From: Rhodococcus opacus
GTDB lineage: Bacteria > Actinomycetota > Actinomycetes > Mycobacteriales > Mycobacteriaceae
NCBI RefSeq assembly: GCF_012396235.1
Contig: NZ_JAAXPA010000028.1
Coordinates: forward strand, 1 to 64,000
Length of the DNA stretch: 64,000 nt
Direction of reading: 5' to 3'
Under the pieces are notes generated by a model. That model ran no database searches, had not been told where the DNA came from, and saw nothing but the letters and a program-made list of their open reading frames with translations. Shown here piece after piece: positions 18,762-34,448 of this stretch. Every line of letters begins with the position of its first letter. Position 1 is the first letter of the stretch. Both the position numbers and the translations under genes were made by a program.

Positions 18762-19757
18762 TCACACCGGAACCGCTTCGATGACGGATGACCGGGGACC
18801 TTGCGTGATCGAATCCAGCGTGAATCCGTGGTCGGTCAACAGTCGGCGCCATTCGGTGATCGTGCGCTCGCGACCTCCCAGGAGAACCAGCATGTGGAGA
18901 TCCAGCAGAGCCATGGGGTGGGTTGTCGCCGATTCCGGCAGGACCTGCTCGACAATCATCAATCGTCCACCTGGCGGGATCGCTTGCCGGCAACTGCTGA
19001 GGATCTTGCCGGCGGACGCGTCATCCCAGTCGTGGAGAATCTGAGACAGCACGTACACGTCACCATTGCCTGGGACGTCGTCGAAGAAGCTTCCGCCCAC
19101 GACTGTCGTTCGTTCACCGATGCCCGCCGAACCAAACGTCGACGGCGCTTCCGCGACCACATGAGGCAGATCGAACAAAATTCCGCGTAGATGCGCGTGC
19201 CGATCGAGCAACCGGGTGATCAGCGCGCCGGTCCCGCCACCGACGTCGACGACCGTTCCCACGTCAGACCAGTCGTGGTCGAGCAAAGGCAGCAAACGCA
19301 ACTCGACCAGCCCTGCTTGGCCCCGTGCGAACTCATCGGCTGCCGACGGATTCTCGGACAACCATTCGAAGTACGGCTTTCCGAACGCCGCTGAAAACGA
19401 TTCCTTCCCCGTCCGGATCGAATGCGCTGCGTGCCCCCACACGAGGTAGGCCTCGTTCGACATCAAGCCGACCAAGTGACGAAGCGAGCCCGGAGCGTCT
19501 GCCCGCAGAAGCTCACCGGCCTCCGTCAACGCAAATCGCCCTCCACCGACTTCCGCAAACAAGCCTTCCGCGACGAGGACCCGCAGGAATCGACCGAGTG
19601 CGTCGGCGTCGGCGCCCACGCTCGCCGCGAGATCGCCGAGCAAGCACGCACCGTCCGCCAATCGGTCGGGCACACCCAGTTCGCAGACAGCTGAAATAGA
19701 TTGGGACACGATGTATCCCATGATCTGTTTTCTCACTCGGTGGTTGACATCGCTCAT
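18762..19757 (-). CDS. SAM-dependent O-methyltransferase (family 2), island enzyme 1
   Basis: The 331-residue protein has an N-terminal helical/winged dimerisation region and a C-terminal Rossmann domain with SAM motif VVDVGGGTGAL (residues 169-179). It also has the catalytic-base region SQILHDWDD, typical of the plant-COMT-like and hydroxyneurosporene/antibiotic O-methyltransferases. The substrate is probably a hydroxylated small molecule from the cluster. ATG 19757 is two bases after the stop of the dioxygenase-like gene, so the two are co-expressed. A longer frame to 19904 overlaps that gene and is rejected. A second enzyme of this family lies at 31371-32390. Confidence 0.85.
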   Translation of the reverse strand: MSDVNHRVRKQIMGYIVSQSISAVCELGVPDRLADGACLLGDLAASVGADADALGRFLRVLVAEGLFAEVGGGRFALTEAGELLRADAPGSLRHLVGLMSNEAYLVWGHAAHSIRTGKESFSAAFGKPYFEWLSENPSAADEFARGQAGLVELRLLPLLDHDWSDVGTVVDVGGGTGALITRLLDRHAHLRGILFDLPHVVAEAPSTFGSAGIGERTTVVGGSFFDDVPGNGDVYVLSQILHDWDDASAGKILSSCRQAIPPGGRLMIVEQVLPESATTHPMALLDLHMLVLLGGRERTITEWRRLLTDHGFTLDSITQGPRSSVIEAVPV

Positions 19758-19759
19758 GT

Positions 19760-21016
19760 TCACGCCACCTCGGACAGCCGCGGGAAGAGTGACATCATCG
19801 CAGCATTCTTCAAATACGACGCGCCTGCCGTACCGCCGGTGCCAGGTACCGTTCCGATGACTTTCAGGGTGATGCCCCAGTGGCCGCGCTTCATCGCAAC
19901 CCACGCACGGTCCAGGCGCCGCATCGCCTCCTCGAGAACGTGTGCATCCGGATGCGTCTTCCGCATCGAGAGATACACGTCCTGCAACGTAGTGTCCCCG
20001 ACATCGATCTTCCCACTATGCTCGAAGTCACGGGGATCGAGTGGAGCGCAGGCGAACTCGACTTCACGAAACGCGCGCGACTGCACCGCGCTCCGCCCAT
20101 GGGTGAAGCCGCGAATAATCGAGAAGGCGTCAACCGGCATCGTCGTGAGAACCCGGAAGAGCGCAGGCACCGCTTCGAGGCGGATCGATGCCCGGTCGAG
20201 GCGACTCTTTGCCGCTGCGGCCAGACCGTGGCGCAGGTCACGGATCGCCATCGAAATCGCTGTCGCGACTTGCCGATACAGACCTTCGAAGATCTGGATG
20301 CAGCGGATGAACATCTGCTCGTCGTGCAGGCGCGTCGTCGGCAACAACGTCAGCCGAACTGCACTTCCGATCTCTTCGGGGACGCCGTTCAGCGCCGGCG
20401 CGGCGTGTGAAGCAAACGAACTGTAGTCGGCGCCCGGCTGAGCCAGCGCCGCAAGACCGGCCGCAGCGACGGAAGGATCGAGCGAGAAATCGGGTGCGAG
20501 CCTGTCGAGTTGGGTCACGACCCGTGTCACTGCACGCGTCCGGACCACCTGGGGGGCGTGTGCCGACCTCCCGAGTGCTCGCGCCTCCAGCAACGCGAGG
20601 TCCATGGCCGCGGCAGCAACGAATGCGTCCACGCGCTGCGCGTCATCGGACCGGACGACCTGGTCGAAATAGTCGAGCCCGACATATGACAGATAGTCGC
20701 CATCCTGAGCATCGAACGTCATCGGTAGCCAGGCACCGAGAACATGATGCGCACGGTTGTTGTTATGGAAGTTTTGCAGCATGGCGACCAGGTGGGGCCG
20801 GACCCCGTTACGCCCGACCGTCTGATAATGGGCCGCGACAGCCGCATGGGGAAACTCCGCGTGTCCCGCCTCCCATTGTCGGAGCGCATTCTCGATATTG
20901 CGTCCAGACAATTCATCGGTCGTCGCTTCAGCAGCCTGAAGGCACGTGCCTCCGACGCCGATCACGCCGGAACGAACAAATTTCTGCTCGGCTTCGAGCA
21001 GTGTTTCGGAAATCAA
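19760..21016 (-). CDS. Tryptophan 2,3-dioxygenase-like haem enzyme with extra N-terminal region
   Basis: The C-terminal half carries tryptophan-2,3-dioxygenase hallmarks. LHDEQMFIRCIQIFEGLYRQ (His231 distal) matches the TDO HDEMLFI helix. TTMPVDAFSIIRGFTHGRS matches the dimer/substrate helix. RGHWGITLKVIGTVPGTGG contains the likely proximal haem ligand His379 and the GTGG loop. The family includes TDO, PrnB, MarE and haem aromatic hydroxylases, so the aromatic substrate and reaction (ring opening, oxygenation or hydroxylation) are open. About 210 N-terminal residues (with HNNNRAHHVLGAWL and DYLSYVGLDYF) are not part of the usual ~280-residue TDO and I do not recognise them. TTG 21016 is the best start; its ribosome site is weak. 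Confidence 0.72.
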   Translation of the reverse strand: MISETLLEAEQKFVRSGVIGVGGTCLQAAEATTDELSGRNIENALRQWEAGHAEFPHAAVAAHYQTVGRNGVRPHLVAMLQNFHNNNRAHHVLGAWLPMTFDAQDGDYLSYVGLDYFDQVVRSDDAQRVDAFVAAAAMDLALLEARALGRSAHAPQVVRTRAVTRVVTQLDRLAPDFSLDPSVAAAGLAALAQPGADYSSFASHAAPALNGVPEEIGSAVRLTLLPTTRLHDEQMFIRCIQIFEGLYRQVATAISMAIRDLRHGLAAAAKSRLDRASIRLEAVPALFRVLTTMPVDAFSIIRGFTHGRSAVQSRAFREVEFACAPLDPRDFEHSGKIDVGDTTLQDVYLSMRKTHPDAHVLEEAMRRLDRAWVAMKRGHWGITLKVIGTVPGTGGTAGASYLKNAAMMSLFPRLSEVA

Positions 21017-21233
21017 TGCGAAACTCGCCTCTCATCCGTACTGCGGTGTTCAGCTATCTTCGACGACGCGCGGCGAATGCGGATAGACACCCTAGGGAGA
21101 CTTCTCGACACCCTTTCCGCTGGGGGGGTGACGTTTTCAACCCTGGGGTGCCTGTTCCGCCCGTAGGCACGTGCCCAGGATTGGGAGCGATACAGAACTC
21201 GAGGCAGGTCGATCCCACAGAAGGAAGAAATCT
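21017..21233. promoter_or_regulatory. Divergent promoter region of the island
   Basis: These 217 bases separate the leftward dioxygenase/methyltransferase pair from the rightward operon. They hold GTGCCT (21148-21153) facing AGGCAC (21165-21170) with 11 bases between, and the 10-bp palindrome GGCACGTGCC (21166-21175). AACCCTGGGG (21139-21148) recurs inverted at 27499-27508 before the first ATP-grasp gene. GAAGGAAG before 21234 is the ribosome site. No regulator gene is present in the island. Confidence 0.4.
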
Positions 21234-22286
21234 ATGCACATAATCGCCAGAAGCGCACTCGAGACGATCAACGAAGCCGTTGTCGGCGCGAGCGCCCACA
21301 ACCTGGGTGTCGTCAAGATATTCAGCCAACACCCTCAGTTGGCGCAATTCATTCCTGCTTCCAGCAATTTGGCGATCAGCTGGGTCAGGTTGGAGTGCGG
21401 TGAGGTGCTGGCGGTGCACAAGCACCCGGAGCCCAGTCTGATCCTGATCTGCGAGGGTTCCGGACGAACGATGGGCGGTGCGGAGCAGGAGGTCGCTGCC
21501 GGAGACATGATCCTCGTCCCCGGCGACTCCTGGCACGGCTTCGAAGGAACCCGGGACGGTTTCTGGGCGCTCTCGATCCAGTTCAACGGCAAGGCACTCT
21601 ACGAGGACGCCGAGAAGCCCAACGCGGTGTTTGCAGGCGAGGTACCGAATCGGGCGGCTGTGCTCCTGGCGGACAACGAGAAGTACCTGCAGCAATTTGG
21701 TACCAGCAGCCTGTTGCAGCTGATCGATGCCCCCTCGTTCGACGACCCCCACGTTCGGGAACGGCTGCTCGACTGCCAGCAGACCTGGTCGGACGTGTTT
21801 CAGGACCTGCTGCACCTGCGTGTCGCGATGACTACCGATACGGCGCACAAGCAGGTGGCGCTCGACCATCTGGTCGAGGAACTGGGCCATAACGACAACC
21901 TGCGCAACCAACGGGGATCAGCGCACGCGCCGGTCACCGATGAGACGTTCGTATCGACAATGGAGTGGTTCAGGCATCAAATGCTGTACCGGAGCGACAT
22001 GGTGCGCACTCTGCTGATGCATGTGGTGCTTGAAGGTAGTGGCGAAATCTGGCACCGGGAAGCGGCGCGAGCGTTTCCGGCAATTCCGCACTTCCAAGAA
22101 CACGGAGAAGACGACGGCCAGCACGTGAGTATGGGGATCGATCTGCTCGATCGCGCAACGCCGGCCGAGATTCGAGAACTCCGCGAAGCACTCGCCGAGG
22201 GATGGAAGATGATCACGCAATTGTGCGACAGAATCGCGTCGCTCGCCCTGGCCGACACGGCGGTCCCCACGTACTCCACATGCTGA
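21234..22286 (+). CDS. Cupin / haem-oxygenase-like (HDO) didomain putative metallo-oxygenase
   Basis: The 350-residue protein joins two metal-binding folds. Residues ~45-115 form a cupin with a three-histidine set: His62 and His64 (HKH) and His101 (PGDSWH). The usual cupin Glu position is Ser68. Residues ~165-335 are all-helical and read as the TenA/haem-oxygenase-like family. They have E215-E216-LGH, Glu267 (VVLEGSGEIWH) and H290-x3-D294-x2-H297. This ligand pattern resembles HDO diiron N-oxygenases such as SznF, where the HDO domain precedes the cupin; here the order is reversed. I infer oxidation, perhaps N-oxygenation, of an amine precursor. The start is ATG 21234 with GAAGGAAG upstream. 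The stop overlaps the ABC gene start. Confidence 0.7.
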   Translation: MHIIARSALETINEAVVGASAHNLGVVKIFSQHPQLAQFIPASSNLAISWVRLECGEVLAVHKHPEPSLILICEGSGRTMGGAEQEVAAGDMILVPGDSWHGFEGTRDGFWALSIQFNGKALYEDAEKPNAVFAGEVPNRAAVLLADNEKYLQQFGTSSLLQLIDAPSFDDPHVRERLLDCQQTWSDVFQDLLHLRVAMTTDTAHKQVALDHLVEELGHNDNLRNQRGSAHAPVTDETFVSTMEWFRHQMLYRSDMVRTLLMHVVLEGSGEIWHREAARAFPAIPHFQEHGEDDGQHVSMGIDLLDRATPAEIRELREALAEGWKMITQLCDRIASLALADTAVPTYSTC

Positions 22287-25200
22287 GCGTCCTCAGGAAA
22301 GTCGTCTGGTTCGAGGTTCCCAAACCCCGAACTCGACTCGACCCTGTGCCCAACGCCTCGCACCTTGCCAGATGGCAGCGGTGGTGTGACGCGGCGCAGC
22401 GGGACAGCGTGAACGCGCTCCGAGGCGAGCGACTGAGCAGATCCGTCTTCGGCGGACTTCGTCGTGACATCATGCTCGGGCTCGTGGCCATCGCGGTCAA
22501 TGCAGGATGCGCCTTTGGTGCTGCGATCACGCTGAAATCGCTGATCCAGCACCTCGTCACCGGCGATCCAGCACTCACGACGAACCTCACGCTTGGTATC
22601 ACCTGCATCGTGCTGACCTACTTGGCGTGGCTTGCATTGAATCACACCTTCATGCAAGCCGACGTGGTAGGCATCGGAGCCCGGACATACATCGAACAAA
22701 GGCTGCTGCACAAGAAACGCAGCATTGCCCCTTCCGACCAACCGGCCGACCTGGTCACGCTCCTGGACCGGGAGGCAGCACGCGTCGAAAATGCTTGGTC
22801 GGGACTCATTTTCATCATTCTGGCACTCGCAACTATCACCTTTACCTCCGCGTACTTCTTCGTGGCGTTGGGACTGAGCGCTCTGGCGGCACTGTCGGTG
22901 ATTCTCGTCAGTTCCGCGGTGATCTACTGGAACGCCAAACAATTGAATGCCGCGCACGCTGCACTGTCGGTGACGGCGGCAGATCGCATCGAAGTCGGCC
23001 TGTTTTCGCTGAACAATCGCCTGCTCGCGTGGCTCAAGAACTGGAACGACGAACTATTTCGGCGCTATGCCGAGAAGCGAGATGGCGAGGAGCGCGCGCT
23101 CCTGAAAGCGGCGCGTCTCATCGCGCGGATCAACCTCATATCGACACTCACTCCGATCGTTGCCATGCTTGCCGCGGTGTTTACCCAGCTGGCCCACGTT
23201 GGTTACGTCGATCCAGCAGGCCTGTTGTCCACAATGGCGCTGGTCGGAGGCTTGAAATCCGTCGCCAACAATATCCCCTTCATTGTTCAGAGTCTGTCCC
23301 AGGGCATTGTCGGGCACTCCAACGTTGCGAAGTATCTATCCAGTCCGCACTCGCTGGACACCGATGCGACCGCAACGCGCCTACCGGCAACAACGGCGAA
23401 GCACATCGCCGTCGTCGGCGCCGCAGGCAGTGGCAAGACATCCGTTCTGAAAATCGGTGCACGCCACAGCAGCCAGGTGAACAGCAAAACGTTCTTCGTA
23501 CCGGATGAACCGTGGATATTCCCTGGCGGGCTCTACGAGAATTTGTGTCTCTATCGAAGCGAATTTACCGACGACGAGGCCCGTCGAGCCTTGACACTGT
23601 CCCGACTTCCCGGAACCTTCTACGGCGATTACCTCTCGAGCAAGTCACGCGACCGGACCGGGGGCTGGAACGTGTCCCGCGGGCAGGGGAAGCGGCTGGA
23701 ACTGGCACGGGCAATATTGGCCGAACCGAAGTTCGTTTACCTGGATCAGCCCACAGCAGGGCTGGACGACGACCTGGCGAATGGGCTGTTGGCCTCCCTT
23801 CTGCGCGGGCCGTGGCACGACACCACGGTCATATATGCAACGGACAAGCCCGATGAAAAAGATGCTGCAGACGAGATATGGGTAATGGCCGGAGGCGAAG
23901 TCGTGGAGGTGATGCGAAACCTCACACCACGTGCGGCGAATCCTGCTCGAGAACGCAAAAGGCATCTCGCTCGAGAGGATCGGTCGGTCGCTCGCTGTCC
24001 CCAGGGCCTGGACCGAGCGGAATTCTCGACTTCGTCACGCCGCAGTCTGATGAGCCTGGGCGTCGCGAAGGTCGCGGTTGTCGCATGCGTCCTGTTTGCG
24101 TGCCGCGACGTTCTGACGATTGTCGGTGACTACACGGCTGCCAGCGGCATTTCGACCACGAATGCGCGGACAGCAGCGACAACCCTCATCGCCGCACTGT
24201 CCGCCGGGGCCCTCCTGTCGATTTTCACCTCCCTGTTCATAGTCAAACGCAGCATCGTGGCGGCATCCCGAAAATGTCGGAATTACTTCTCGACCGTCAT
24301 GAGTCCAAAGCCCTCCAGGCCGGCCTTCGACGAGGTCGATCAGGACTATCAGAGCAAACTGACTTGGGATCAACGACGTATCGACGAACTTCTGCCAGAA
24401 GTACTTCTGAATACGCTGGGTGCGGTTACATTGCTGCTCACGACCGCCGCGTTCGTATTGAGCAAGAACATTTTCGTCCTGCTGCCCCTTGTCGGGATGT
24501 GCTTCGCCTACTGGCACAGTTCGAAGCGGTCGGGAAGGCGACTGCAGGACTTCAACGATAGAGAGATCGGTACGACGTCGACCGTGTTGGAGCGGGTCGA
24601 GGCCATTACCTGGAGCTCAGCGAGATTCGACTTGGCACGCGACAACTCGGCCCTCGTCAATTGGCTGAACAAGAGTTTGATGAATCGCGCCTTCGCTTCG
24701 ATGGACAATGCGGGCGCACGCCGCTGGTTCAACTACAAGCTCGATTTGATGGGTGTGCTCTTCCTGTCGATCGTCGTCGGTTCAACCGTGCTTGTCCAGG
24801 CCGGCGGCGGACCCGGCCTCAGCGGTGTTCTCGCGCTCAGTCTCTCGTACAGCCTCATCGCTGTTTTCGCCCGAGTGGGCCGTTGTCTGGTGGACCTCAG
24901 ACAGGTTCTCGACAGCGCGGATCGTCTCCTCACGCCTCCGACCGGCCCGGCGCCGCGCTGGACCGGCTCAGCAGTTGAAGACGCAGCGCTCGTATCCTTT
25001 TCGGAGGTAACGTACGTCGCGCCGCAGACCGGGGCGGTGCTGCTGGAAGAGCTTTCCGAGTCCTTTGCCAGCCGAGACGTCGTGGTCATCATGGGCCCGA
25101 GCGGGGTGGGTAAGTCGACATTTGCGAAGCTGGTTGTGGGCAGTCTGCAGCCGACAACAGGCGTCCTCTCGACATTGGGCCGGACGACGGGATACGTCTC

Positions 25201-25723
25201 GAATTCCCACGCCGAAGACATCCTCCTCCTGACGTCGAGTCCGATCTTCAAGCCAGGCAGATTGATCGAACACTTCAACAGCCCGTTACCGCTCGAATTG
25301 GCTCGCGTCGTCGACTATCTCGACGTGGCAGACGTCGTCGGGCGACTACCGTCCGGATTCGACGAGCCCGTCCCTGCCACGGGTCAGTTGAATCTGAGCA
25401 AGACGGAACTGCAGCGGCTGGCGCTCCTCGACCTGTTGATCAATCGCCCGGCGGTCGCAATTCTCGACGAAGCGACTTCCGAGTTGAGTACAACAGCAGA
25501 GCTCTCGATATTGCAGGCCGTGATCTCTGCCTTGCCGGACACGCTCTTCTTCATCATCACGCACAATCCCGGGCTGACCGAACTTGCCAACCGAGTCTTC
25601 CACTTCAACGGCGAGCGACGCCTCCTCGAGAATTCTGGCCAGTCGCACACGACAGCCGATCGGAACTGGAATGGAAAGGAGGAAGACCATGGAATGGCTG
25701 CCCCAACGCGATGCGTTCTGTAA
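22280..25723 (+). CDS. Single-chain ABC exporter (TM-NBD-TM-NBD) with asymmetric ATP sites
   Basis: The 1147-residue protein contains two exporter half-units in tandem. NBD1 has Walker A GAAGSGKT (Lys386), a degenerate signature SRGQG (466-470) and Walker B YLDQPTAGLD, where Gln490 replaces the catalytic glutamate. NBD2 has Walker A GPSGVGKST (Lys945), signature LSKTE in place of LSGGE, and an intact ILDEATSE (Asp1063, Glu1064). Each is preceded by about five to six membrane segments. This resembles heterodimeric or ABCC-type exporters with one degenerate site. Likely role: export of the island product or self-protection. ATG 22280 overlaps the preceding stop. The end overlaps the next gene by 35 bases. 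Confidence 0.85.
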   Translation: MLSVLRKVVWFEVPKPRTRLDPVPNASHLARWQRWCDAAQRDSVNALRGERLSRSVFGGLRRDIMLGLVAIAVNAGCAFGAAITLKSLIQHLVTGDPALTTNLTLGITCIVLTYLAWLALNHTFMQADVVGIGARTYIEQRLLHKKRSIAPSDQPADLVTLLDREAARVENAWSGLIFIILALATITFTSAYFFVALGLSALAALSVILVSSAVIYWNAKQLNAAHAALSVTAADRIEVGLFSLNNRLLAWLKNWNDELFRRYAEKRDGEERALLKAARLIARINLISTLTPIVAMLAAVFTQLAHVGYVDPAGLLSTMALVGGLKSVANNIPFIVQSLSQGIVGHSNVAKYLSSPHSLDTDATATRLPATTAKHIAVVGAAGSGKTSVLKIGARHSSQVNSKTFFVPDEPWIFPGGLYENLCLYRSEFTDDEARRALTLSRLPGTFYGDYLSSKSRDRTGGWNVSRGQGKRLELARAILAEPKFVYLDQPTAGLDDDLANGLLASLLRGPWHDTTVIYATDKPDEKDAADEIWVMAGGEVVEVMRNLTPRAANPARERKRHLAREDRSVARCPQGLDRAEFSTSSRRSLMSLGVAKVAVVACVLFACRDVLTIVGDYTAASGISTTNARTAATTLIAALSAGALLSIFTSLFIVKRSIVAASRKCRNYFSTVMSPKPSRPAFDEVDQDYQSKLTWDQRRIDELLPEVLLNTLGAVTLLLTTAAFVLSKNIFVLLPLVGMCFAYWHSSKRSGRRLQDFNDREIGTTSTVLERVEAITWSSARFDLARDNSALVNWLNKSLMNRAFASMDNAGARRWFNYKLDLMGVLFLSIVVGSTVLVQAGGGPGLSGVLALSLSYSLIAVFARVGRCLVDLRQVLDSADRLLTPPTGPAPRWTGSAVEDAALVSFSEVTYVAPQTGAVLLEELSESFASRDVVVIMGPSGVGKSTFAKLVVGSLQPTTGVLSTLGRTTGYVSNSHAEDILLLTSSPIFKPGRLIEHFNSPLPLELARVVDYLDVADVVGRLPSGFDEPVPATGQLNLSKTELQRLALLDLLINRPAVAILDEATSELSTTAELSILQAVISALPDTLFFIITHNPGLTELANRVFHFNGERRLLENSGQSHTTADRNWNGKEEDHGMAAPTRCVL

Positions 25724-26615
25724 CAGTCACAACGTTCCACGGCCACAACTTCCGCTGAGGAACATCGCGCACTGGAACGCGGTACTCCAGGGCAGCGTGA
25801 GCAGCAATGACGCCCTGCATCACGAGCGAGCGTACGTCGCACCCGGATACTTCTACATGCCCGTGTGCGACGAGCCCGACGATCGGACATTGGCGGAGTT
25901 GTCGAGCCTGGCGTCAACCGCCGACTGGTTGTTGGTCCCTTCCCTTCGCAGATCCGATCGCCGTCGGCGCGCCGACGTCATTGCAGTTCCATTCATGAAG
26001 GCGGCATTCTTCCGGTCTTCGCGAAGTGTGGACCTCGCCTTGCGAACCGCGGTAGGACCCAGCCAATACAAATCAATCGTCAGGCTCACGAGGAAGGCCG
26101 AAGCGGCGTGCACAACCGAGATACACCGTCTCTCGGACGTGGCAGAAGACAATCGGGTCCTGCGCGATTTCGCCTGCCTTCAGGCCTTGAATGTGGCCAA
26201 GTACGGACACGCCAAGAACCTCTATACGAGCGATGTGCTGCGTATGCTGGCACGCTCGTCCGAAGGTGAGAAATATTTCGTGAAGCTGGACTACGACAAG
26301 TATTCGAATACTCCGTTGGCCGGATCACTGAGCTACGCCGACGATCACCGTGGCGTGTTTACGAAACTCGTTCGGGGACTGGACCACGACCGAATTCCGC
26401 GTGGGTTGAATCTGTATATCGCCGACTACTACCAAATGTATCATTTCGCGGATCGGCTGGGTTTCGCGGACGTCTGCCTCGGCCGAGGCGCCATCGACGC
26501 GAAGGTCCGGGTGGGCGCAATTCACATTGTCAACCTGGACAACTGGCTGATTCCGGTCAACACACAGCGTACACAGGCGATGCAGGACTACGCGAGATCG
26601 CGACATGGAGACTGA
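25689..26615 (+). CDS. FemAB/GNAT-like acyltransferase of unknown substrate
   Basis: The 308-residue protein has no exact family I can name with certainty. The pattern NTPLAGSLSYADDHRGVFTK, then RIPRGLNLYIADYYQMYHFADRLGF, then CLGRGAIDAKVRVGA is that of FemAB-type and CelD/BioF2-like GNAT proteins, with an LG...K..G ending. Such enzymes move aminoacyl groups, often from aminoacyl-tRNA, or acyl-CoA, onto amines. In this setting it may form an amide or load an amino acid onto the intermediate. ATG 25689 has GGAGG upstream and lies inside the end of the exporter gene. It ends one base before the aminotransferase start. Confidence 0.55.
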   Translation: MEWLPQRDAFCNSHNVPRPQLPLRNIAHWNAVLQGSVSSNDALHHERAYVAPGYFYMPVCDEPDDRTLAELSSLASTADWLLVPSLRRSDRRRRADVIAVPFMKAAFFRSSRSVDLALRTAVGPSQYKSIVRLTRKAEAACTTEIHRLSDVAEDNRVLRDFACLQALNVAKYGHAKNLYTSDVLRMLARSSEGEKYFVKLDYDKYSNTPLAGSLSYADDHRGVFTKLVRGLDHDRIPRGLNLYIADYYQMYHFADRLGFADVCLGRGAIDAKVRVGAIHIVNLDNWLIPVNTQRTQAMQDYARSRHGD

Positions 26616-26616
26616 G

Positions 26617-27471
26617 ATGATCAGCGAAATAGCCTGGGCAGATGGAAGATGCGTGCGATTCGACGAGGTGATCCTGTCACCTGCCACCCATGGGTTGTCG
26701 TATGCCACGTCGGTGTTCGACGGTATCCGCACGTACGGCGGCAGCATCTTCAAATGCGACGACCACATAGCGAGGTTGCGGCGGTCCGCCGAGTTGTTCG
26801 GGCACACCGTGCACTATTCGAATGCGGACTTGGCCGACGCTTGCCACGAATTGGTGAGGGCCAACGATCTGGCCGATGCGTACATCAAGTGCTTGGTCTT
26901 CTATGACGACACCGATGTGAGTTTCAAGGCGCAGGGCTCTTCCAGCAAGGTGGTCCTGTTTGCCCTGCCCTTTCCTTCGAATTCGGCCGCGGAGCAATAT
27001 CGGCTGTCGACGGCAACGTGGCGGCGTGCACCCGCCTCCTGTCACCCGTATCAGGCGAAGACGTCGTCTACCTACGCGTTGAGCTACTTGAGCCACCGCG
27101 GGCGGGCCGACGGCTACGATGACGTGCTCTTCCTCTCGACAGCCGACGCTGTGTGCGAGTCGAGCGGCTCGAACGTGTTCTTCGTCAAGGGGAACGCATT
27201 GTTCACGCCGACTGCCGAATTGGCCCTCGACGGGATTACCCGAAGGGTGATAATCGATGAGCTGTGTCCGCGACTGAAGCTCTCGGTAACGGAACGCGAC
27301 ATCGCCTACGGCGAGATCGGATCGTTCGACGCCGCATTTCTGTGCGGGACTGCGATCGAAATCATGGAGGTTTCCGGCATCGACGAGATCCGGTATGCGA
27401 AGTCCGCAGTGGTCGATGCGATTGCAACCGAGTATCGACACTTGACCAACGGCCGGTCCGCGATCCGATGA
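26617..27471 (+). CDS. Class IV PLP aminotransferase (branched-chain aminotransferase-like)
   Basis: The 284-residue fold-type IV enzyme has the usual sequence path: SPATHGLSYATSVFDGIRTY, HIARLRRSAELF, then the PLP lysine Lys148 in PYQAKTSSTYALSYL, ESSGSNVFFVKGNALFTP and LDGITRRVIID. Relatives are IlvE, D-amino-acid transaminase and aminodeoxychorismate lyase. IlvE-like transamination of an amino or keto acid building block is most likely. ATG 26617 has GGAG six bases upstream. ATG 26605, in frame, would overlap the previous gene. A paralogue dedicated to the island rather than the housekeeping IlvE is inferred from context. Confidence 0.82.
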   Translation: MISEIAWADGRCVRFDEVILSPATHGLSYATSVFDGIRTYGGSIFKCDDHIARLRRSAELFGHTVHYSNADLADACHELVRANDLADAYIKCLVFYDDTDVSFKAQGSSSKVVLFALPFPSNSAAEQYRLSTATWRRAPASCHPYQAKTSSTYALSYLSHRGRADGYDDVLFLSTADAVCESSGSNVFFVKGNALFTPTAELALDGITRRVIIDELCPRLKLSVTERDIAYGEIGSFDAAFLCGTAIEIMEVSGIDEIRYAKSAVVDAIATEYRHLTNGRSAIR

Positions 27472-27596
27472 CAAACAAGCAAGGTGGGTAAACCTTCCCC
27501 CCAGGGTTCCTAGCTTCACGGCCGTCGGACCGGGATAGTACTGGAAGGTGAAAGTCCATTTCGCCGAACGATATTCCATCCAGCGGGGTCTTCTGA

Positions 27597-28856
27597 ATGA
27601 AACTGCTCATTCTCCATCGCGTTCCGTATTCCTTCATCGAATACCATCGTGTAATCGATCATGGAATTCACGATGTCGTCTACGTGGGCTCGAGCGCGCA
27701 ACTTGCGACCGTGCCGCCCGACCTTCCTTGCACGAGGGTTGAACGCCCGGGTCGAGCAGGTCTGGCCGAGGAAGTTCGCACCCTGTTCTCCCCCGACGAT
27801 GCCTTCGACCGAGTCATCAGCGTCTCCCAATACGAGATGATGGAGGCAGCGCAGATAAGACGGAGCCTCGGAATAGAAGGAGTATCACCGGAGCAGGTCC
27901 ACATCGTGAACGACAAGATAGCGATGAAAGCCGCAGTCGCAGGATGCGGACTTCGCGTGCCCAGATTTGTTCGCTGCGATGAGGCGCTCACCGCTTCGTC
28001 CGCCGATGTCACTCCGTGGGCTGGGAAGACGGTGCTCAAACCACTCGATGGAACCGCCAGCAAGGATGTTGTCGTCTTCGCCACCTACGCTGACGCCGGC
28101 AGTGCGATCCTCAACCACCCTACGGGTCTGGAGGACTGGGATCCGGAACGCTTCCAGCTCGAAGAATATGTGGAGGGGCCGATCTTCCACTTCGATGGCG
28201 TGATGCTTGCCGGTGCGCCGGTGGCGATCATCGCCAGCAGATATCTGGGCACTTGCCTCGAGTTTGCCCAGGGAGTTCCGCAGGGATCGATTCAAGTCGA
28301 CGACGACGGTGGGCGTTGCAAGGTAGCGGTCGAGTACCTTCGGGCCGTGGGTATCGACAATGGCCCATTCCATCTCGAAATGATCGAGGCCGCAGATGGA
28401 ATGGTTTTCCTGGAGGTCGGCGCCCGCCCTGGCGGCGGACATATCAAGGAGACATTCCGGCTTGCCACAGGCATCGACTTGGTCGCGGCCGGTTTGGCCT
28501 GCAACCTCGATTGGTCACCTCTCGAAATCAATCCACTGAAACGGTGGTTCGAAAGTACGGCGAGCAGTACGGTCTACGGGGATTTCATGTTCCCGGGTCA
28601 CCTGCTTCCGTCGCGGTACTGCGCGATATCGGGTGGAGAACGGTTTCAGGCCCACCCAGACGTTGTTCGATGGAAGGAGCTGGATGCGGGCGCTTCTCTT
28701 CCGGAGACCGTGAGCTATTTCGATTTCGAATTGCCCGTCAGCGGTATCGTCGCCGGCCGGTCGAGCTCTGAAGTGACCTCACTCATTCGCGAAATCCTGA
28801 CGACCGTGCAAGTCGTACCGATTGAGCAACCCACGCAATGCCCCACACCTGGCTGA
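27597..28856 (+). CDS. ATP-grasp ligase, island copy 1
   Basis: The 419-residue protein shows ATP-grasp landmarks: VNDKIAMKAAVAGCGLRVP, the ATP-lysine KPLDGTASKDVVVF, hinge FQLEEYVEGPIFHFDGVM, and the metal-binding FHLEMIEA...FLEVGARPGGGHI. These enzymes make acyl-phosphates and join carboxylates to amines. Carboxylate-amine ligases of this type (BacD, DdaG kinds) build dipeptides without an NRPS. It is separated from the aminotransferase by 125 bases that carry AACCCTGGGG in inverted orientation, so it may have its own promoter. Substrates cannot be read from sequence. Confidence 0.82.
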   Translation: MKLLILHRVPYSFIEYHRVIDHGIHDVVYVGSSAQLATVPPDLPCTRVERPGRAGLAEEVRTLFSPDDAFDRVISVSQYEMMEAAQIRRSLGIEGVSPEQVHIVNDKIAMKAAVAGCGLRVPRFVRCDEALTASSADVTPWAGKTVLKPLDGTASKDVVVFATYADAGSAILNHPTGLEDWDPERFQLEEYVEGPIFHFDGVMLAGAPVAIIASRYLGTCLEFAQGVPQGSIQVDDDGGRCKVAVEYLRAVGIDNGPFHLEMIEAADGMVFLEVGARPGGGHIKETFRLATGIDLVAAGLACNLDWSPLEINPLKRWFESTASSTVYGDFMFPGHLLPSRYCAISGGERFQAHPDVVRWKELDAGASLPETVSYFDFELPVSGIVAGRSSSEVTSLIREILTTVQVVPIEQPTQCPTPG

Positions 28857-28974
28857 CCGGACAGAACGTAAATCTGCTCGGTAAATACGTGGGTTGTCGG
28901 TCATTGGGGTGCGCAAGGTCGCCGCCGGAAGGCCGGTTGCCTTCTCTGCGTATCGGTTGGTGTTGACGGTTAAG

Positions 28975-30131
28975 CTGCCGACCTGCTCGGCCCCGGCGGG
29001 GGCGGGCGCAGTGGCGGCGGGTCCGGCTGACCGCCGCCATCCCCGCACACCTGCACGGCCGGGCGATCACCGACTGGCATCTGCCGACCCTCGTCCTCGA
29101 CCGCCGGGGTCTGTTGTTGCGGTGCGCCGCGACCGAACTCGTCCCCGCCGCCGATCTGATGGCCAGCACGGTCGCGGTCGGGGTCGACTGGTCCCCGTCC
29201 ACACTCGGCGCCGCCGCCATCACCGCTGACGGCCCGGCCGGGTTGTCGTCGGATTACCGGGGCTGGACGTACGACGACCGCGGCCTCGGAATCACACTGG
29301 CCCGCCTACAGACCGAAGGCCAGATGCTGCACCGCAAGGCGGCCCGGTTGACGCGGCTGGCCGTCGCCGAACCCGAGGTCCGCGCCCAACTCGAGGGGAA
29401 GATCGCCGTCCTCAACGTGCATCGGACTGCGGTGGGCGTCAAACGGGGCAAGATCAACCGGGAACTGGGATTCCACTTCGCCCGCCAGGTCACCGACTAC
29501 GCCGCCACCGCGGGTGCGCAGGTGATCGCGGTCGAGGACCTCACCACCCTCGAGACCCGCGGACACGGACGAGTCAACAACAACCGGGCCCGCGCAGTCC
29601 GCCCGCCGTAATGCGACCGCCGCCCTCACGCACACCGCCGCGGGTGTGGGTGTCGCGGTGGTCACGGTGCCCGCCCGCGGATCCTCGGCACAGTGTCCGG
29701 GGTGCGACGAACCGCTCACCCGCCCCGGCGGCTGTCACACCGCATGGTGTCCCCGCTGCCTGGTCGGCGGCAACCGCGACCAGATTGCCGGGGTGAACCT
29801 GGCCACACGCGCGCTGCTCGGTAAGAACAAAGTGACCCGGCGGCGGGGGCAGCTGCCCGCGGTCCGGGTCGCCGAGCACGCGCCGGTCCGAAAGTTCCGG
29901 GACAAGACCAGTCCGACACCGCGTCGGCCGCGGCATCGCCGGGTTCGCCGCAGCCTCCGCACCGTCACACCGCGGGCGGGGGTGACTCCGAAACAGCATG
30001 TTCCTGCACCCGAAGCGTCGGTGTGGGACACGGTCCAACCCACACCACCACACGGTGATGCGGGTAGCCGTGACACACGTACATCTCAACCATCAGCCAC
30101 ACCAGTGGCAGATAGTACGAGATCTACGTAG
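28975..30131 (+). pseudogene. tnpB: Frameshifted TnpB-like RNA-guided nuclease remnant (IS200/IS605 or IS607 type)
   Basis: Two frames together give the C-terminal RuvC part of TnpB. The first (to 29611) has VGVDWSPSTLG (catalytic Asp near 29186) and VIAVEDLTTLETRG (Glu near 29534). A stop at 29609-29611 interrupts it. The frame that continues reads QSARRNATAALTHTAAGVGV, the zinc ribbon CPGCDEPL...CPRC, and NRDQIAGVNLATRALLG with the third acidic residue. The N-terminal recognition half is not recognisable. No tnpA, clear ends or target duplication are seen. Its tail runs 45 bases into the opposite-strand ATP-grasp gene. GC is higher than the surrounding island. Confidence 0.7.
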
Positions 30132-31312
30132 ACGCTCGTCTCCACCCGAATCCGAGCCTGCGCCTCAGCCAACCGGCGCTCGGCGTCCACGAGATCAGTG
30201 CCGACCGCGACTATGACACCTTGACGATCCGCAGAGGACCGGAGCGGACCGAGGTGTTGCCCTGGTTCGAGAGAACACTGCAACCGGATGACCCCCTCGG
30301 CCTGACGCGCGGCTTCGATGCCCTGCACGCGTTCGATCACCACATTCTCGTAACCAAAGAATGCGACGCAGCCTGCACCGCGCCCGGGTGCTCGCGATTG
30401 CGGCGGCAGCCCGGCAAGATGACAGATCGACTCCCGGACCAGATCGCGACCCATCGCACGGTGCACCAGCTCCCAAATGAAATCGCCTCCAGGACGGGTA
30501 TTGCCCTCGATGATCCGTGGCCCGGCCGAACCGATACGCACTTCGGTATGGGCCGGCCCAAAGGAATGACCGATCGAACTGAGGAAATCGGTGACGAGAC
30601 CGCGGAGCTCGGCAAGGGCCGATGCCGCGAGCACGGCCGGCATCAGATGACCGGTTTCGATATACCGTGGCGGGCCGGTGGTGGTTTTTGCGGTCACCGC
30701 GATGATGTCGTGCCGGCCATCCGTGGTGAAGGATTCGACGCTGTATTCGGGGCCGTCGATGAACTCTTCGACGAGGGTCGGCCCGGGGTACTCGCCGCGA
30801 GAGCAGGCGAATGCGGATTCGACCTGGTCAAGGCTGGAGACGCGAAGAACACCGGAGCTGCCGGCGCCTTCAGCCGGCTTGACGATGATCGGGCCGCCCA
30901 CTGACTGAAGAAAGCTCCGTACCTCGGAGGCCGAATCGCAGCTTCGGGTCAGCACAGCTCCGAGATCACGGCCGGCCAGGTGCTCGCGCATGGCGATCTT
31001 GTCGCGGGTCAACCGGACGGCTTTCCGCGCATTGCCCTTGATGCCCAATGCCTCTTTGATCACGGCGGCCGGCATGAGGCCATGCTCGGTGAATGACACG
31101 ACGGCATCGACGGGTTTAACCTCGTGCAGCTCCTGCGCCATGCTGAGCGCCTCTGCCTGGTTGCGGTAGTCGAATACGCACAGCCGGTGGGCGCGTCTGG
31201 CCTGCCGCGCGGTGACCGATTCGGAATTCTGAAACACAGACAGCTCGACCGGTAGATCTTCGATCATTCGGAAAGTCTCGTCATGTCCGCCGACGATCAA
31301 AATGTGAGCCAT
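30086..31312 (-). CDS. ATP-grasp ligase, island copy 2
   Basis: The 408-residue protein is a second ATP-grasp enzyme, only distantly like copy 1. Landmarks are LTRDKIAMREHLAGRDLG, PIIVKPAEGAGSSGVLRV (ATP lysine and glycine loop), TLVEEFIDGPEYSVESF, and HTEVRIG...PRIIEGNTRPGGDFI (metal ligands Glu and Asn). It resembles carboxylate-amine/L-amino acid ligases. It follows the second O-methyltransferase by 58 bases on the minus strand and is convergent with copy 1, the TnpB remnant lying between. Two ligases could mean two successive amide bonds. Confidence 0.82.
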   Translation of the reverse strand: MAHILIVGGHDETFRMIEDLPVELSVFQNSESVTARQARRAHRLCVFDYRNQAEALSMAQELHEVKPVDAVVSFTEHGLMPAAVIKEALGIKGNARKAVRLTRDKIAMREHLAGRDLGAVLTRSCDSASEVRSFLQSVGGPIIVKPAEGAGSSGVLRVSSLDQVESAFACSRGEYPGPTLVEEFIDGPEYSVESFTTDGRHDIIAVTAKTTTGPPRYIETGHLMPAVLAASALAELRGLVTDFLSSIGHSFGPAHTEVRIGSAGPRIIEGNTRPGGDFIWELVHRAMGRDLVRESICHLAGLPPQSRAPGRGAGCVAFFGYENVVIERVQGIEAARQAEGVIRLQCSLEPGQHLGPLRSSADRQGVIVAVGTDLVDAERRLAEAQARIRVETSVYVDLVLSATGVADG

Positions 31313-31370
31313 GCCGACCCACCTCCTCGAGGTCCGCTGATTCCCGGAGGTCGCGCTCGTCCGGCCGGTC

Positions 31371-32390
31371 TCACTTCCGGCCCTCGATTGCGCTGAAGCC
31401 GCAGGGCAGGAGCGTACTGCCGGTGAGTTCGAGGCCTGCGCGCTCGTATAGGCGCGCGTAGTCCTGAATCGTTCGCTCCCGGCCGCCCGTCATGACCAGC
31501 ATGGCGACGTCCACCACATTTCCCCAGACGTATCCGCCATCCTCGCTGATCACCCGCTCCAGGACCAGGATCCTGCCGCCGGGCGCGAGTGCGTTCGCGC
31601 AATTGATGAGGACGCGTACCGAGTCGTCGTCGTTCATCGTGTGGAGAACGCTCTTGAGCAGGTGGACGTCGCCCCCGCCAGGCACCTCTGTGAAACCGTC
31701 GCCGGGCACAATGCCACACCGCTCATCGACGCCATATTCCCGCAAGGTGTGACCGGCCCTGGCCAGCGAGAACTCCAGGTCGTAAATCGTGCCCCGCAGA
31801 TGATCGTATTTGCGCAACAGCTGGGCGGTCACGATGCCGTAGCCACCGCCGACATCGACGACGTGCCGATTGTCCGTAAAATCGATCGCTTCCGCGGTCT
31901 CGAGACCGGCGCGGATCGAGATCTCGTGCCAGCCCAGATGGAAGCGCTGGGCGGAGTCGGGGTGCTCGGCCAGGTAGTCGAAGAGGGATTTGCCGAAGAA
32001 CTGGCCGAATCCTGTCTGTCCCGTACGTGCGCATTGGAGCAGCTCGCTCCAGGCCAGGTACGTTTCTGCGCCGGCAAAGAGCTCCACCTCGCTTGCGATC
32101 GATTCCGGATTATCCCTGCGCAAGAATTCGGCTCGCGGCGTGAGTGCGCATCTGTCATGCTCGTCCACGGAGAAGATCCCCGCGCTCATGAGTAGGCGGA
32201 GGATCCGCTTCAGCGCATCGGGATCAGTGCCGCTTCGTTGGGCGAGGTCGGCAAGCGCCATTGGGCCCCCCGCCAGCAGATCGGCGAGCTCCAGCTCGAC
32301 GGCTACGAACAAGCAGCTGGATATGTTGTAGCCATGAACCATTTCTTTGACACAGAGACGGTCGGGCTTGTCACGGAAGTCGAAATACAT
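31371..32390 (-). CDS. SAM-dependent O-methyltransferase (family 2), island enzyme 2
   Basis: The 339-residue protein has the layout of island enzyme 1: N-terminal helical region (LVAVELELADLLAGG-like; ADLAQRSGTDPDALKRILRLL), SAM motif HVVDVGGGYGIVT, catalytic-base region LLKSVLHTMNDDD and C-terminal GGRERTIQDYARLYERAG. The closely similar C-terminus in enzyme 1 (GGRERTITEWRRLL) suggests an ancient duplication with different targets. ATG 32390 gives MYFDFRDKPD; an internal ATG at 32342 is possible. It heads a leftward two-gene unit with ATP-grasp copy 2. Confidence 0.85.
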   Translation of the reverse strand: MYFDFRDKPDRLCVKEMVHGYNISSCLFVAVELELADLLAGGPMALADLAQRSGTDPDALKRILRLLMSAGIFSVDEHDRCALTPRAEFLRRDNPESIASEVELFAGAETYLAWSELLQCARTGQTGFGQFFGKSLFDYLAEHPDSAQRFHLGWHEISIRAGLETAEAIDFTDNRHVVDVGGGYGIVTAQLLRKYDHLRGTIYDLEFSLARAGHTLREYGVDERCGIVPGDGFTEVPGGGDVHLLKSVLHTMNDDDSVRVLINCANALAPGGRILVLERVISEDGGYVWGNVVDVAMLVMTGGRERTIQDYARLYERAGLELTGSTLLPCGFSAIEGRK

Positions 32391-32533
32391 GTGCGCCTTC
32401 GAAAGGTCGTGGAGTACAGCAATACGTGGAACTCCCGGACTCCCGGGCGTTCAACCAGCGTGAGGTTTCAGCGCGTCGCGCGATAGATACCCAGGGGCTG
32501 GCAACCATCCACCCCCGCCCGCACCACGTAGGT

Positions 32534-33154
32534 TCAGGTGGTAATCGCAGGGTCCGATTCCGACCCCAGATTTCGCACCAGCCAACGCCCGTCGACGAGA
32601 TGCATGAGGACCGGGCACACGTACCGGGGATCGTTCGGCTGCCACAGACCGCCCTCCAGCGCCGAGGCGTCGAGTACGTAGAGCGCCTCGACCCCCGGGG
32701 CGACCATCCTGGTGGCTGAACCGATTCCCCACGTCGCCGGATCTGGCAGCATCGCCCCGAACGACCGCACATGCACGCGCTCGAAATGCACCCACAGCGG
32801 ATGATCCGGCGGCCCGGCAAGGGCCGCCTCAACCGCCTCACCATCCCACCGTCAACAGTCATCTGATAGTGGTTGCACACACCCACTTCTGCGCCAGTAC
32901 CGCCCGGAAGTCGGGATCCACGTTCGGCCATATCGACCGGTTGAGTTCGCCCCGTCCACACACACCGGCATCAGGAATGCCCACGCCGCATTCACCAGAT
33001 CTGTATGCCCGAGAAACCGCACCAGTTCGGCCGGATCCACCGCACGAAGCTGCCGGTACGTCTGCCGCACCTCGAGCGGCAACGAGTCGATCTGCTCGTC
33101 GGTCAGCTGAAGAAGCCGGACGCACGCGTCGAGAACTACCCGACAGGCAGCCAC
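32534..33154 (-). pseudogene. Truncated PIN-domain (VapC-like) toxin start fused to decayed unknown sequence
   Basis: From GTG 33154 the frame reads AACRVVLDACV, the usual opening of VapC-like PIN ribonucleases with the first acidic residue. It then breaks into RLLQLTDEQIDSLPLEVRQ, which is not PIN-like. Protein-like segments follow in shifted frames (NRSIWPNVDPDFRAVLAQKW, then HFERVHVRSFGAMLPDPATW and VLMHLVDGRWLVRNLGSES to 32534), with an in-frame stop at 32852. I infer a deletion that joined a toxin gene to another gene, followed by decay. Function of the second part is unknown. The 143 bases from 32391 to 32533 hold the OMT promoter region. Confidence 0.45.
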
Positions 33155-33173
33155 CGGTTGCCCTGCCCCTAGA

Positions 33174-33632
33174 TCAACGGGTCGAGACGAAGCCGTCAGC
33201 GGCGTCGCCGGGGTCTGGGGTTTCCTCGTGCGCCATCTCCTCGAACACTTGACCGCGTCGCGCGCGCTCGTGTTGTCGAAAGGCCCGCACGTCCGCCAAC
33301 TCCACCCGCCGGTGCCTGCCCGGCGACGAGTACGGAATCTTCCCGGCCTCCAGCAACCGCACCAACGTCGGCCGGGAAATGCCCAGCAGTTCCGCGGCCT
33401 CCTGCGTCGTCAACACCGTCCGATGCGGCTCCACCGTCACCGCCTGCCCCCGATCCAGAGTCGTGACCGCGTCGACGAGCAGCCTCCGGACACTGTCCGG
33501 CAACGGCGCCGAACCCTCCGGAGTCGAGATCGTCACATCATCCTGACCAGCGATAACATACTTCAACGCGGTGAGAAGGTCCCGATCGTCGGCGCCCGGC
33601 GGCAACACCGTGTGGTTCATCAGAGCGGCCAT
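33174..33632 (-). CDS. Excisionase/MerR-type HTH protein, probable antitoxin left without its toxin
   Basis: The 152-residue protein has a helix-turn-helix of the excisionase kind: TVLTTQEAAELLGISRPTLVRLLEAGKIPYSSPGRHRRVELADVR (key parts TTQEAAELL, SRPTLVRLL, GRHRRV). In actinobacteria such proteins are often paired, a few bases upstream, with a PIN-domain toxin. Here the toxin start at 33154 is present only as a fragment. The acidic N-terminal region (TALKYVIAGQDDVTIS) is typical of the pair. It lies at the right edge of the island and may mark an old integration or rearrangement point. Confidence 0.7.
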   Translation of the reverse strand: MAALMNHTVLPPGADDRDLLTALKYVIAGQDDVTISTPEGSAPLPDSVRRLLVDAVTTLDRGQAVTVEPHRTVLTTQEAAELLGISRPTLVRLLEAGKIPYSSPGRHRRVELADVRAFRQHERARRGQVFEEMAHEETPDPGDAADGFVSTR

Positions 33633-33692
33633 ACCTCAACCATAAAGCGAAAAAAACGAACACAATCTCCTGCGCAGAGGACGAGGTAGCTC

Positions 33693-34448
33693 TCAGCCCA
33701 GCCCGTCGAGGAATGCCTCGACCACTTTCCGGTACTGCTCCGGTTGGTCGTCGTGGACGAGGTGCCCGGCCCGCTCGATGCGGACGTACTCGGCGCCGGG
33801 ATGCCGCTCCGCCATGGTCCGCATCTGACCGTCGGGGGTGATCGTGAACTCCCCCTCGATCAGCAGGGCCGGAATCGTGATCGACGCCCACTGGTCCCAG
33901 AAGTGCCTGCCGCCCCACTCCTCGGAGATGTCGCGGAACGTGTCGACGTCCCCGTGCAGGTACCAGCCGTCGGCGCGCTTCTCGAAAGAATCCAGGAAGT
34001 ACTGTCCGGCAACCGGACCGAAGAACTCGAACAGGTCTTCCCGGGTCGCGAACGGCTGCGGCCAGTTCGAGATCATCGCCGCCCAGTCCGCGGCGGTCCG
34101 GCCCCGGAAGTCGGGGGCCATGTCTTCGAGCACGAGCGCCGACACCTTCTCGGGGTGTTCGGCCGCCAGGCACCACGCGTGCAGGGCGCCCATCGAATGA
34201 CCGATCACCACCCACGGCTCGGCGAAAGGCGCGAGTACGGCGGCCAGATCTTCCACGAACGCTTCCGTCGTCAACCGCGACGGTGCGGGCCTGCCGTGAC
34301 CTGCGGCGTCGAACGTGAAGACGTGGCCGTGCTCGCGCAACCACGGCACGTGCCGACCCCAGGTCCGCGCGCTGCCCATCAGCCCGTGCAACAGCAGAAT
34401 CGGCTGCCCCGTCCCACCCTCGTCGTGCAACGCACTCTCACCTGCCAC
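33693..34448 (-). CDS. Alpha/beta hydrolase
   Basis: The 251-residue hydrolase has the oxyanion-hole LLLHGLMGSARTW, the nucleophile elbow VIGHSMGALHAWCLA (catalytic Ser), an acidic residue region near LLIEGEFTITPDGQM, and the catalytic His in RAGHLVHDD. Substrate is unknown. Position next to mhuD matches the hydrolase Rv3591c and marks the return to the conserved backbone after the island. No signal peptide is present. Confidence 0.88.
   Translation of the reverse strand: MAGESALHDEGGTGQPILLLHGLMGSARTWGRHVPWLREHGHVFTFDAAGHGRPAPSRLTTEAFVEDLAAVLAPFAEPWVVIGHSMGALHAWCLAAEHPEKVSALVLEDMAPDFRGRTAADWAAMISNWPQPFATREDLFEFFGPVAGQYFLDSFEKRADGWYLHGDVDTFRDISEEWGGRHFWDQWASITIPALLIEGEFTITPDGQMRTMAERHPGAEYVRIERAGHLVHDDQPEQYRKVVEAFLDGLG

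Follow-up and report, generated by a model that had tools for sequence, protein, structure and literature searches.

An inserted Rhodococcus island that combines ATP-grasp ligases with a cupin-HDO protein and a TDO-family heme oxygenase is a candidate locus for NRPS-independent biosynthesis

We analysed a 64,000-nucleotide stretch of DNA from Rhodococcus opacus (the window), in which an island is inserted between mutY and an alpha/beta hydrolase gene. Its nine ORFs, each of which translates without stops, encode a TDO-family heme oxygenase and a cupin-HDO protein, two ATP-grasp ligases, a class IV aminotransferase, two O-methyltransferases, a predicted ABC exporter and an orphan protein. The genes (A to I) and other features are as follows:

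18762..33692, no strand: whole island, delimited by alignment to the empty-site relative G026
18762..19757, minus: A, O-methyltransferase (Methyltransf_2 plus dimerisation domain; PF00891 E 4e-49; His242 in an LHDWDD motif)
19760..21016, minus: B, TDO-family heme oxygenase with an extra N-terminal region (PF03301, PDB TDO, fold)
21234..22286, plus: C, N-terminal cupin and C-terminal HDO-type domain (Cupin_2 E 9.7e-8; Haem_oxygenas_2 E 0.12)
22283..25723, plus: D, predicted ABC exporter, CydDC-like, with two TMD-NBD halves in a single chain (PF00005, PF00664)
25689..26615, plus: E, orphan protein with no significant family match
26605..27471, plus: F, class IV (PLP) aminotransferase, BCAT-like (PF01063 E 2.2e-49, over cut-off)
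27597..28856, plus: G, divergent ATP-grasp ligase (PF13535 E 0.0011; score 19 bits, cut-off 27)
28900..30085, plus: broken TnpB-like remnant, GC 0.71 (weak tail match, NCBIfam TnpB E 0.041)
30086..31312, minus: H, ATP-grasp ligase with an L-amino-acid-ligase C-terminal domain (PF13535 3.5e-19, LAL_C2 4.3e-18)
31371..32390, minus: I, O-methyltransferase, paralogue of A at 35-39% identity (PF00891 1e-34; His250 in an LHTMND motif)
32391..33692, minus: HTH_17 gene (33174-33632; PF12728 9.8e-15) and degraded ORFs, within the inserted stretch

Alignment to G026 matched the window up to 18761 and resumed at 33693 (97.1% and 96.4% identity), with 11 unaligned bases between the aligned flanks of G026. 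Because mutY and the hydrolase gene lie 12 bp apart in this close relative, the island is a clean insertion, and it is best read as a block of about 15 kb that was acquired as a unit and slotted between two ordinary genes of a soil Rhodococcus. A preliminary description had placed the nine intact genes in a lower-GC block of about 13.6 kb at 18762..32390; its left end stands, whereas its right end moves out to 33692, and the island also holds the TnpB-like remnant (~28.9-30.1 kb) and the HTH gene with degraded ORFs (32.4-33.7 kb). The lower GC was borne out (A-G at 0.602 and H-I at 0.630, with 0.682 and 0.670 on the two sides of the window), as was the tight packing, with gaps or overlaps of +2 (A/B, the leftward pair), -4 (C/D), -35 (D/E), -11 (E/F), +125 (F/G) and +58 (H/I) bases; GC3 was 0.66-0.78 in the island genes against 0.85 in mutY and 0.88 in the hydrolase gene. 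Pfam found no NRPS, PKS or carrier domain among the nine proteins, as that description had also said, and a promoter scan of 20900-21350 found no sigma-70-like site. DNA homologous to the TnpB-like remnant is present on an R. opacus plasmid; of 8 related loci, 7 gave no match to the remnant and L020 gave one of 145 bases, and the upstream ORF of the remnant had no Pfam match. Near 33108-33112, L021, L022 and L024 carry about 570 extra bases that are not in L020.

Across the genus, the core genes A-F were found in 9 of 28 genomes (own genome included), at a different location in 2 of these, and every one of the nine cupin-HDO genomes also has A-F. The genes thus co-occur more than by chance, where scattering would have counted against the proposed cluster. 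The nine genes gave dN/dS values of 0.09-0.30 against L021, L023 and L024, and of 0.02-0.53 against the closest relative, L020, where synonymous changes are few; the island core is under purifying selection. Two diverged Rhodococcus clusters lack G, H and I and carry a different ATP-grasp between B and C, which favours a history in which two units merged, G, H and I joining later a core that consisted of A-F and a single ATP-grasp. We regard this history as possible but less likely than not: the remaining seven clusters have G, H and I, for which the relatives tested show purifying selection, so loss in the diverged pair is equally possible. The two-unit reading concerns history and is compatible with the biosynthetic explanation given below.

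Both methyltransferases score over the PF00891 cut-off and keep the motif histidine, which is catalytic in this family. B is a member of the TDO family by PF03301 (6.1e-11, over cut-off), by a profile match to PDB TDO (1.8e-15) and by a fold match to the superfamily, in line with its first description as TDO-like; it retains the GTGG loop of TDO, and its proximal and distal histidines, H379 and H231, are kept in 13 of 13 aligned B-type sequences. A and B are partners beyond Rhodococcus: a homologue of A (55-62% identical) adjoins 8 of 10 close non-Rhodococcus homologues of B, and 5 of the 10 lie within a conserved ATP-grasp/radical-SAM/AlkZ-related cassette in Planotetraspora, Streptosporangiaceae and Streptomyces (LAL-LAL-HemN-like rSAM-MFS-ATP-grasp-AdoMet decarboxylase-TDO-like-OMT, plus an amidohydrolase and the AlkZ-related gene). 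The AdoMet decarboxylase of this sister cassette passes the cut-off of TIGR03330, the SAM decarboxylase model. A CC-1065/yatakemycin-like product was considered for the cassette because of its HemN-like rSAM and AlkZ-related gene, and no specific link was found in the parts of the literature consulted: compounds of that type are described there as of serine/methionine/tyrosine-DOPA origin, with a cyclopropanase made of a HemN-like protein and a methyltransferase (PMC9570651, PMC9062424), and none of the terms dioxygenase, ATP-grasp, radical SAM and tryptophan appears in the available text of a survey of AlkZ-like proteins (PMC9040887).

The conserved histidines and loop of B, together with the aminotransferase and the PF00891 methyltransferases, would also suit a kynurenine-type route along quinolobactin-like lines: B would be a working tryptophan 2,3-dioxygenase, F would transaminate kynurenine, whose closure would yield a quinoline (kynurenate), and A and I would methylate and G and H amidate this. 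We consider this unlikely. Formamidase and kynureninase are absent among A-I by Pfam, and B reaches 63.7 bits against the curated cut-off of 390.7 of the TDO equivalog TIGR03036, a cut-off that the two short TDO types tested also fail to reach. Short TDO types form a group of their own in the tree, apart from the B-type (support 1.000), and other clusters (L057, L058 and L063; L064 and L068 by alignment) have, close to their B-type enzyme, a short TDO-family gene as well, so that the B-type is not a substitute for that gene in those clusters.

The cupin of C spans residues ~50-106 and the HDO-type part ~148-340. H62, H64 and H101 of the cupin are invariant in four proteins, the 3H/3C set of the HDO-type part (E216, H219, E267, H290, D294 and H297) is invariant in 9 of 9 sequences, and the nine putative metal ligands are conserved across three lineages. 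In support of the first description, C has a cupin and HDO-type ligands, its HDO half being under family cut-offs: for PF14518, C scored E 0.12 and a homologue 6.5e-6, both under cut-off, and a profile search of this half against PDB HDOs gave no HDO match. KinJ-type hydrazine heme enzymes were tried as relatives and set aside; the available text of PMC12154649 lacks 'dioxygenase', 'HDO' and 'cupin'.

D, earlier called an export gene, has the domains of an exporter-type ABC transporter, two Walker A motifs and one Walker B in which Q replaces E; its best NCBIfam models, CydD (2.4e-40) and CydC (3.8e-33), are both under cut-off. E had been called a FemAB-like transferase, a label that the searches did not bear out: it had no significant match in Pfam, NCBIfam or PDB, was not one of the 11 places to which GNAT_6 (PF13480) matched across its own genome at E<=10, and did not align with one GNAT_6 protein by BLASTP or hhalign. 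tblastn of E against plasmids likewise gave nothing usable, its AF2 model, built from four sequences, is unreliable (mean pLDDT 46.9), and both diverged Rhodococcus clusters carry E at 70-71% identity. F is a class IV aminotransferase as proposed, and its best NCBIfam models (BCAT) are under cut-off. Two ATP-grasps had been claimed; H passes the cut-offs and G falls below, aligning with H and the cassette ATP-grasps at 25-34% (34% over 235 residues with that of Planotetraspora).

The exporter-type transporter in the operon, and the inclusion of SznF homologues in metallophore clusters in the available text of PMC10849742, would fit a metallophore, with C N-hydroxylating an amine to a hydroxamate-like ligand, the ATP-grasps assembling the chelator and D exporting it. 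This is quite improbable, as the Pfam scan of the nine proteins found neither a siderophore receptor nor a reductase or metal-uptake family. Least probable is a locus that degrades or detoxifies a derivative of an aromatic amino acid, which the oxygenases, the aminotransferase and the aromatic catabolism for which Rhodococcus is known would favour and against which stand the two ATP-grasp proteins, two methyltransferases and exporter-type transporter, the absence among A-I of a CoA ligase or of any ring-cleaving enzyme save possibly B, and the presence of amide ligases and an AlkZ-related gene in the cassettes that hold relatives of B.

We therefore favour, at a probability of about 0.55, a locus for NRPS-independent biosynthesis and export that was gained in one block and whose product would be an exported methylated tryptophan-type amide or short peptide. 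B, as a histidine-ligated heme enzyme, would oxidise tryptophan or a derivative, and A, its usual partner, would O-methylate the new hydroxyl. On a tryptophan-type building block, the HDO-type dimetal site of C would activate O2 to oxidise an amine or a side chain; the three-histidine cupin site of C, which is separate, may perform a second step. F would make or remove an amino group on a building block, G and H would form one or two amide bonds to give an amide or di/tripeptide, I would add a second methyl group, and D would export the product. Gene content, the conserved catalytic or ligand motifs of A-C and I, the insertion, co-inheritance, selection and the A-B pairing are seen in the data; the class of substrate, the sequence of steps, the transport direction and the amide character of the product are inferred. 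A bolder proposal, which we think improbable, makes C an as yet uncharacterised class of reversed-order cupin-HDO that evolved apart from SznF: the HDO would oxygenate a tryptophan-derived amine at its nitrogen and the cupin would rearrange or couple it, placing an N-O or N-N group (nitroso, diazeniumdiolate, hydrazine or oxime) in an ATP-grasp-built peptide.

No description of the cluster was found in the open-access PMC papers that were searched, and ATP-grasp-built peptides that lack NRPS, PKS and RiPP signatures may escape standard cluster finders. If the favoured reading is right, the locus offers a testable cupin-HDO of reversed domain order, an unusual arrangement of two iron-binding domains, a TDO-type/methyltransferase pair in common with a cassette that has a gene for possible self-protection by DNA repair, and a compound that Rhodococcus strains in laboratory use may be making unnoticed.

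Among known systems, B shares its fold, distal and proximal histidines and GTGG loop with the MarE/TDO/PrnB/IDO superfamily and differs in having an O-methyltransferase as frequent partner; it differs from the short TDO types in its tree group and in ~200 residues ahead of the TDO-matching part. H has both domains of the ATP-grasp L-amino acid ligases (ATP-grasp_4 and LAL_C2) over Pfam cut-offs, whereas G has no LAL_C2 match and is under the ATP-grasp_4 cut-off. The sister cassette has in common with the island the A-B pair and a G-like ATP-grasp, but contains nothing that matches C, D, E or F within the 20-21 kb read and is set apart by its rSAM, AdoMet decarboxylase and AlkZ-related gene. 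AetD and SktA, described in the available text of PMC13108848 as HDOs acting on bromo-tryptophans, share with C the 3H/3C-type ligand set and a suspected tryptophan-type context; C differs in carrying a cupin and in an HDO half without sequence match to PDB HDOs. SznF/StzF of streptozocin resembles C in combining HDO-type ligands with a three-histidine cupin in a single chain, and the sources available name SznF as the only cupin-bearing HDO to have been characterised. The order is reversed (HDO then C-terminal cupin in SznF/StzF, N-terminal cupin in C), the first Glu-His pair is E-x2-H in C against 10 apart in SznF/StzF, A-I include no arginine methyltransferase, and the genes around C encode a TDO-type enzyme and ATP-grasps. 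Each of the SznF/StzF residues reported as essential in the accessible text of PMC11705231 (E215, H225, E281, H311, D315 and H318; H407, H409 and H448) nevertheless has a proposed counterpart in C, and the H-x3-D-x2-H spacing is identical.

The window was aligned with comparison genome G026, whose mutY is 96% identical to that of the window. The alignment runs through 18761 and resumes at 33693 (97.1% and 96.4% identity), leaving 11 bases of G026 unaligned between the flanks, and in that genome mutY and the alpha/beta hydrolase gene lie 12 bp apart as a clean empty site. The island therefore spans 18762-33692; the start proposed in the preliminary description was retained, and the end was moved outwards from 32390. 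The site is likewise empty in G004 and G009, with spacers of ~190 bp and ~100 bp, respectively. Translation of the window gave nine intact ORFs, A-I, across 18762-32390, with the tight gaps and overlaps previously described. Most of the gene names were borne out by Pfam or NCBIfam; that of E was not, and the scores of G and of C's HDO half fell below cut-off.

Features of the island (window coordinates)
18762-32390: genes A-I, as follows
A, left arm, minus strand: O-methyltransferase (OMT)
B, left arm, minus strand: TDO-like
C, right arm, plus strand: cupin-HDO
D, right arm, plus strand: ABC transporter
E, right arm, plus strand: orphan
F, right arm, plus strand: class IV aminotransferase
G, right arm, plus strand: ATP-grasp
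H, far end, minus strand: ATP-grasp with LAL_C2
I, far end, minus strand: O-methyltransferase
28900-30131 (28.9-30.1 kb): GC-rich TnpB-like remnant; weak tail match to TnpB (NCBIfam)
32391-33692 (32.4-33.7 kb): HTH_17 gene, antitoxin- or excisionase-like, and degraded ORFs

The D protein contains two transporter halves, in which a pattern search found Walker A twice and Walker B once (the latter with Gln replacing Glu); CydD and CydC were its closest NCBIfam models, at scores far under cut-off. The TnpB-like remnant, which has homologous DNA on an R. opacus plasmid, appears to have taken the place of the 3' end of H: H has 408 residues in the window and in L020 (the closest relative locus), and in five other relatives the match ends at residue 393. 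Loci L021, L022 and L024 carry ~570 extra bases in the region matching 32391-33692.

Cupin-HDO was found in 9 of 28 genus genomes (the window's own included), all nine with A-F and seven also with G, H and I. Six of these seven (the window, G005, G006, G008, G010 and G027) carry the cluster at the mutY/hydrolase site with both flank genes; neither flank gene was detected in the seventh, G016 (74% complete). The other two clusters, with A, B, a different ATP-grasp, C, D, E and F, are displaced: that of G009 is at 2.08 Mb, with mutY and the hydrolase next to each other at 0.76 Mb, and that of G024 occupies a contig distinct from those holding the flank genes. From this arrangement, A-F plus one ATP-grasp form a co-travelling unit. 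Named records with the cluster were R. koreensis DSM 44498, R. tibetensis and a Rhodococcus MAG.

dN/dS for the nine genes was 0.09-0.30 against L021, L023 (the G027 locus) and L024, and 0.02-0.53 against L020, where the values rest on few changes. Gene I of G027 (L023 14950-15965) is split over two frames, apparently by a frameshift or sequencing error, and only its larger piece was included. Against L020, dS was 0.016-0.037 in eight genes and 0.076 in F (mutY 0.151, hydrolase 0.061); against L021, 0.054-0.120 in the island and 0.236 in both flank genes; and against L023, 0.142-0.282 (flanks 0.361 and 0.416). Island dS thus fell under both flank genes for 9/9 genes in L021 and L023 and 8/9 in L020, which suggests exchange of the island among some close species; in L024 island and flanks were alike (0.202-0.320; 0.246 and 0.257).

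Outside the genus, C was searched at E ≤ 1e-20 in an order sample (2/297 other genomes, HDO part only) and at E ≤ 1e-15 in a phylum sample (0/395 other genomes) and the family of the L018 Streptomyces (9/267; one full-length protein and eight matches to the HDO part alone), with an additional homologue in one Embleya record. B (E ≤ 1e-20) was absent from the 395 other genomes of the phylum sample and present in 13/250 genomes of Planotetraspora's family and 6/295 of the L018 genus. Neighbourhoods were compared for ten B homologues from outside Rhodococcus (E ≤ 1e-60; L016, L017, L018, L055-L061); an A homologue (55-62%) directly adjoins B in all except L017 and L018. Five of these eight loci (L016, L055, L056, L060, L061; about 1.5-18 kb; Streptosporangiaceae and Streptomyces) hold a cassette of two L-amino-acid ligases, a HemN/HutW-like rSAM, MFS, ATP-grasp, AdoMet decarboxylase, B and A, and in each locus an amidohydrolase gene and an AlkZ-related one lie close by; the cassette is a candidate family for making a DNA-damaging metabolite. 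Among 11 weaker B places (Planotetraspora family and L018 genus), six regions were read (L063-L068), and none had an A homologue. In L063 (3521-15178), a B-type gene is accompanied by a short TDO-type gene, aminotransferases of classes IV and V, genes for an FAD monooxygenase, a cyclase and a GNAT_6 protein, and an ORF that resembles the cassette ATP-grasp.

Genes close to the C homologue of G1295 encode a class I/II aminotransferase, a TDO-family protein, a DUF6875 protein and a P450, and stand-alone relatives of the HDO half adjoin genes for DMATS-type (aromatic) prenyltransferases in all seven regions read out of 10 such hits (L030, L031, L084-L088). GTPase/roadblock-like ORFs, which we take to be conservon-type, occur in six of these seven. 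Because of the G1295 and DMATS contexts, together with B, we infer that C may act on a tryptophan-type substrate. Counting against this, the scanned neighbours of the Embleya homologue (SDR, FAD protein, AraC, aldehyde and alcohol dehydrogenases and one ORF without family) offered no tryptophan-type link.

No account of this cluster was found in searches of open-access papers; its enzyme kinds are already known, and what looks new is how they are combined and the order of the domains in C. The cupin residues H62, H64 and H101 of C are invariant in four proteins (window, R. tibetensis, Embleya and G1295), and its HDO-type residues E216, H219, E267, H290, D294 and H297 in nine HDO-type sequences. 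For the streptozocin enzyme SznF, E215, H225, E281, H311, D315, H318, H407, H409 and H448 are reported as essential (PMC11705231), and a 2026 review sets SznF apart from other characterised HDOs by its C-terminal cupin (PMC13108848). In SznF the cupin is C-terminal, whereas in C it comes first.
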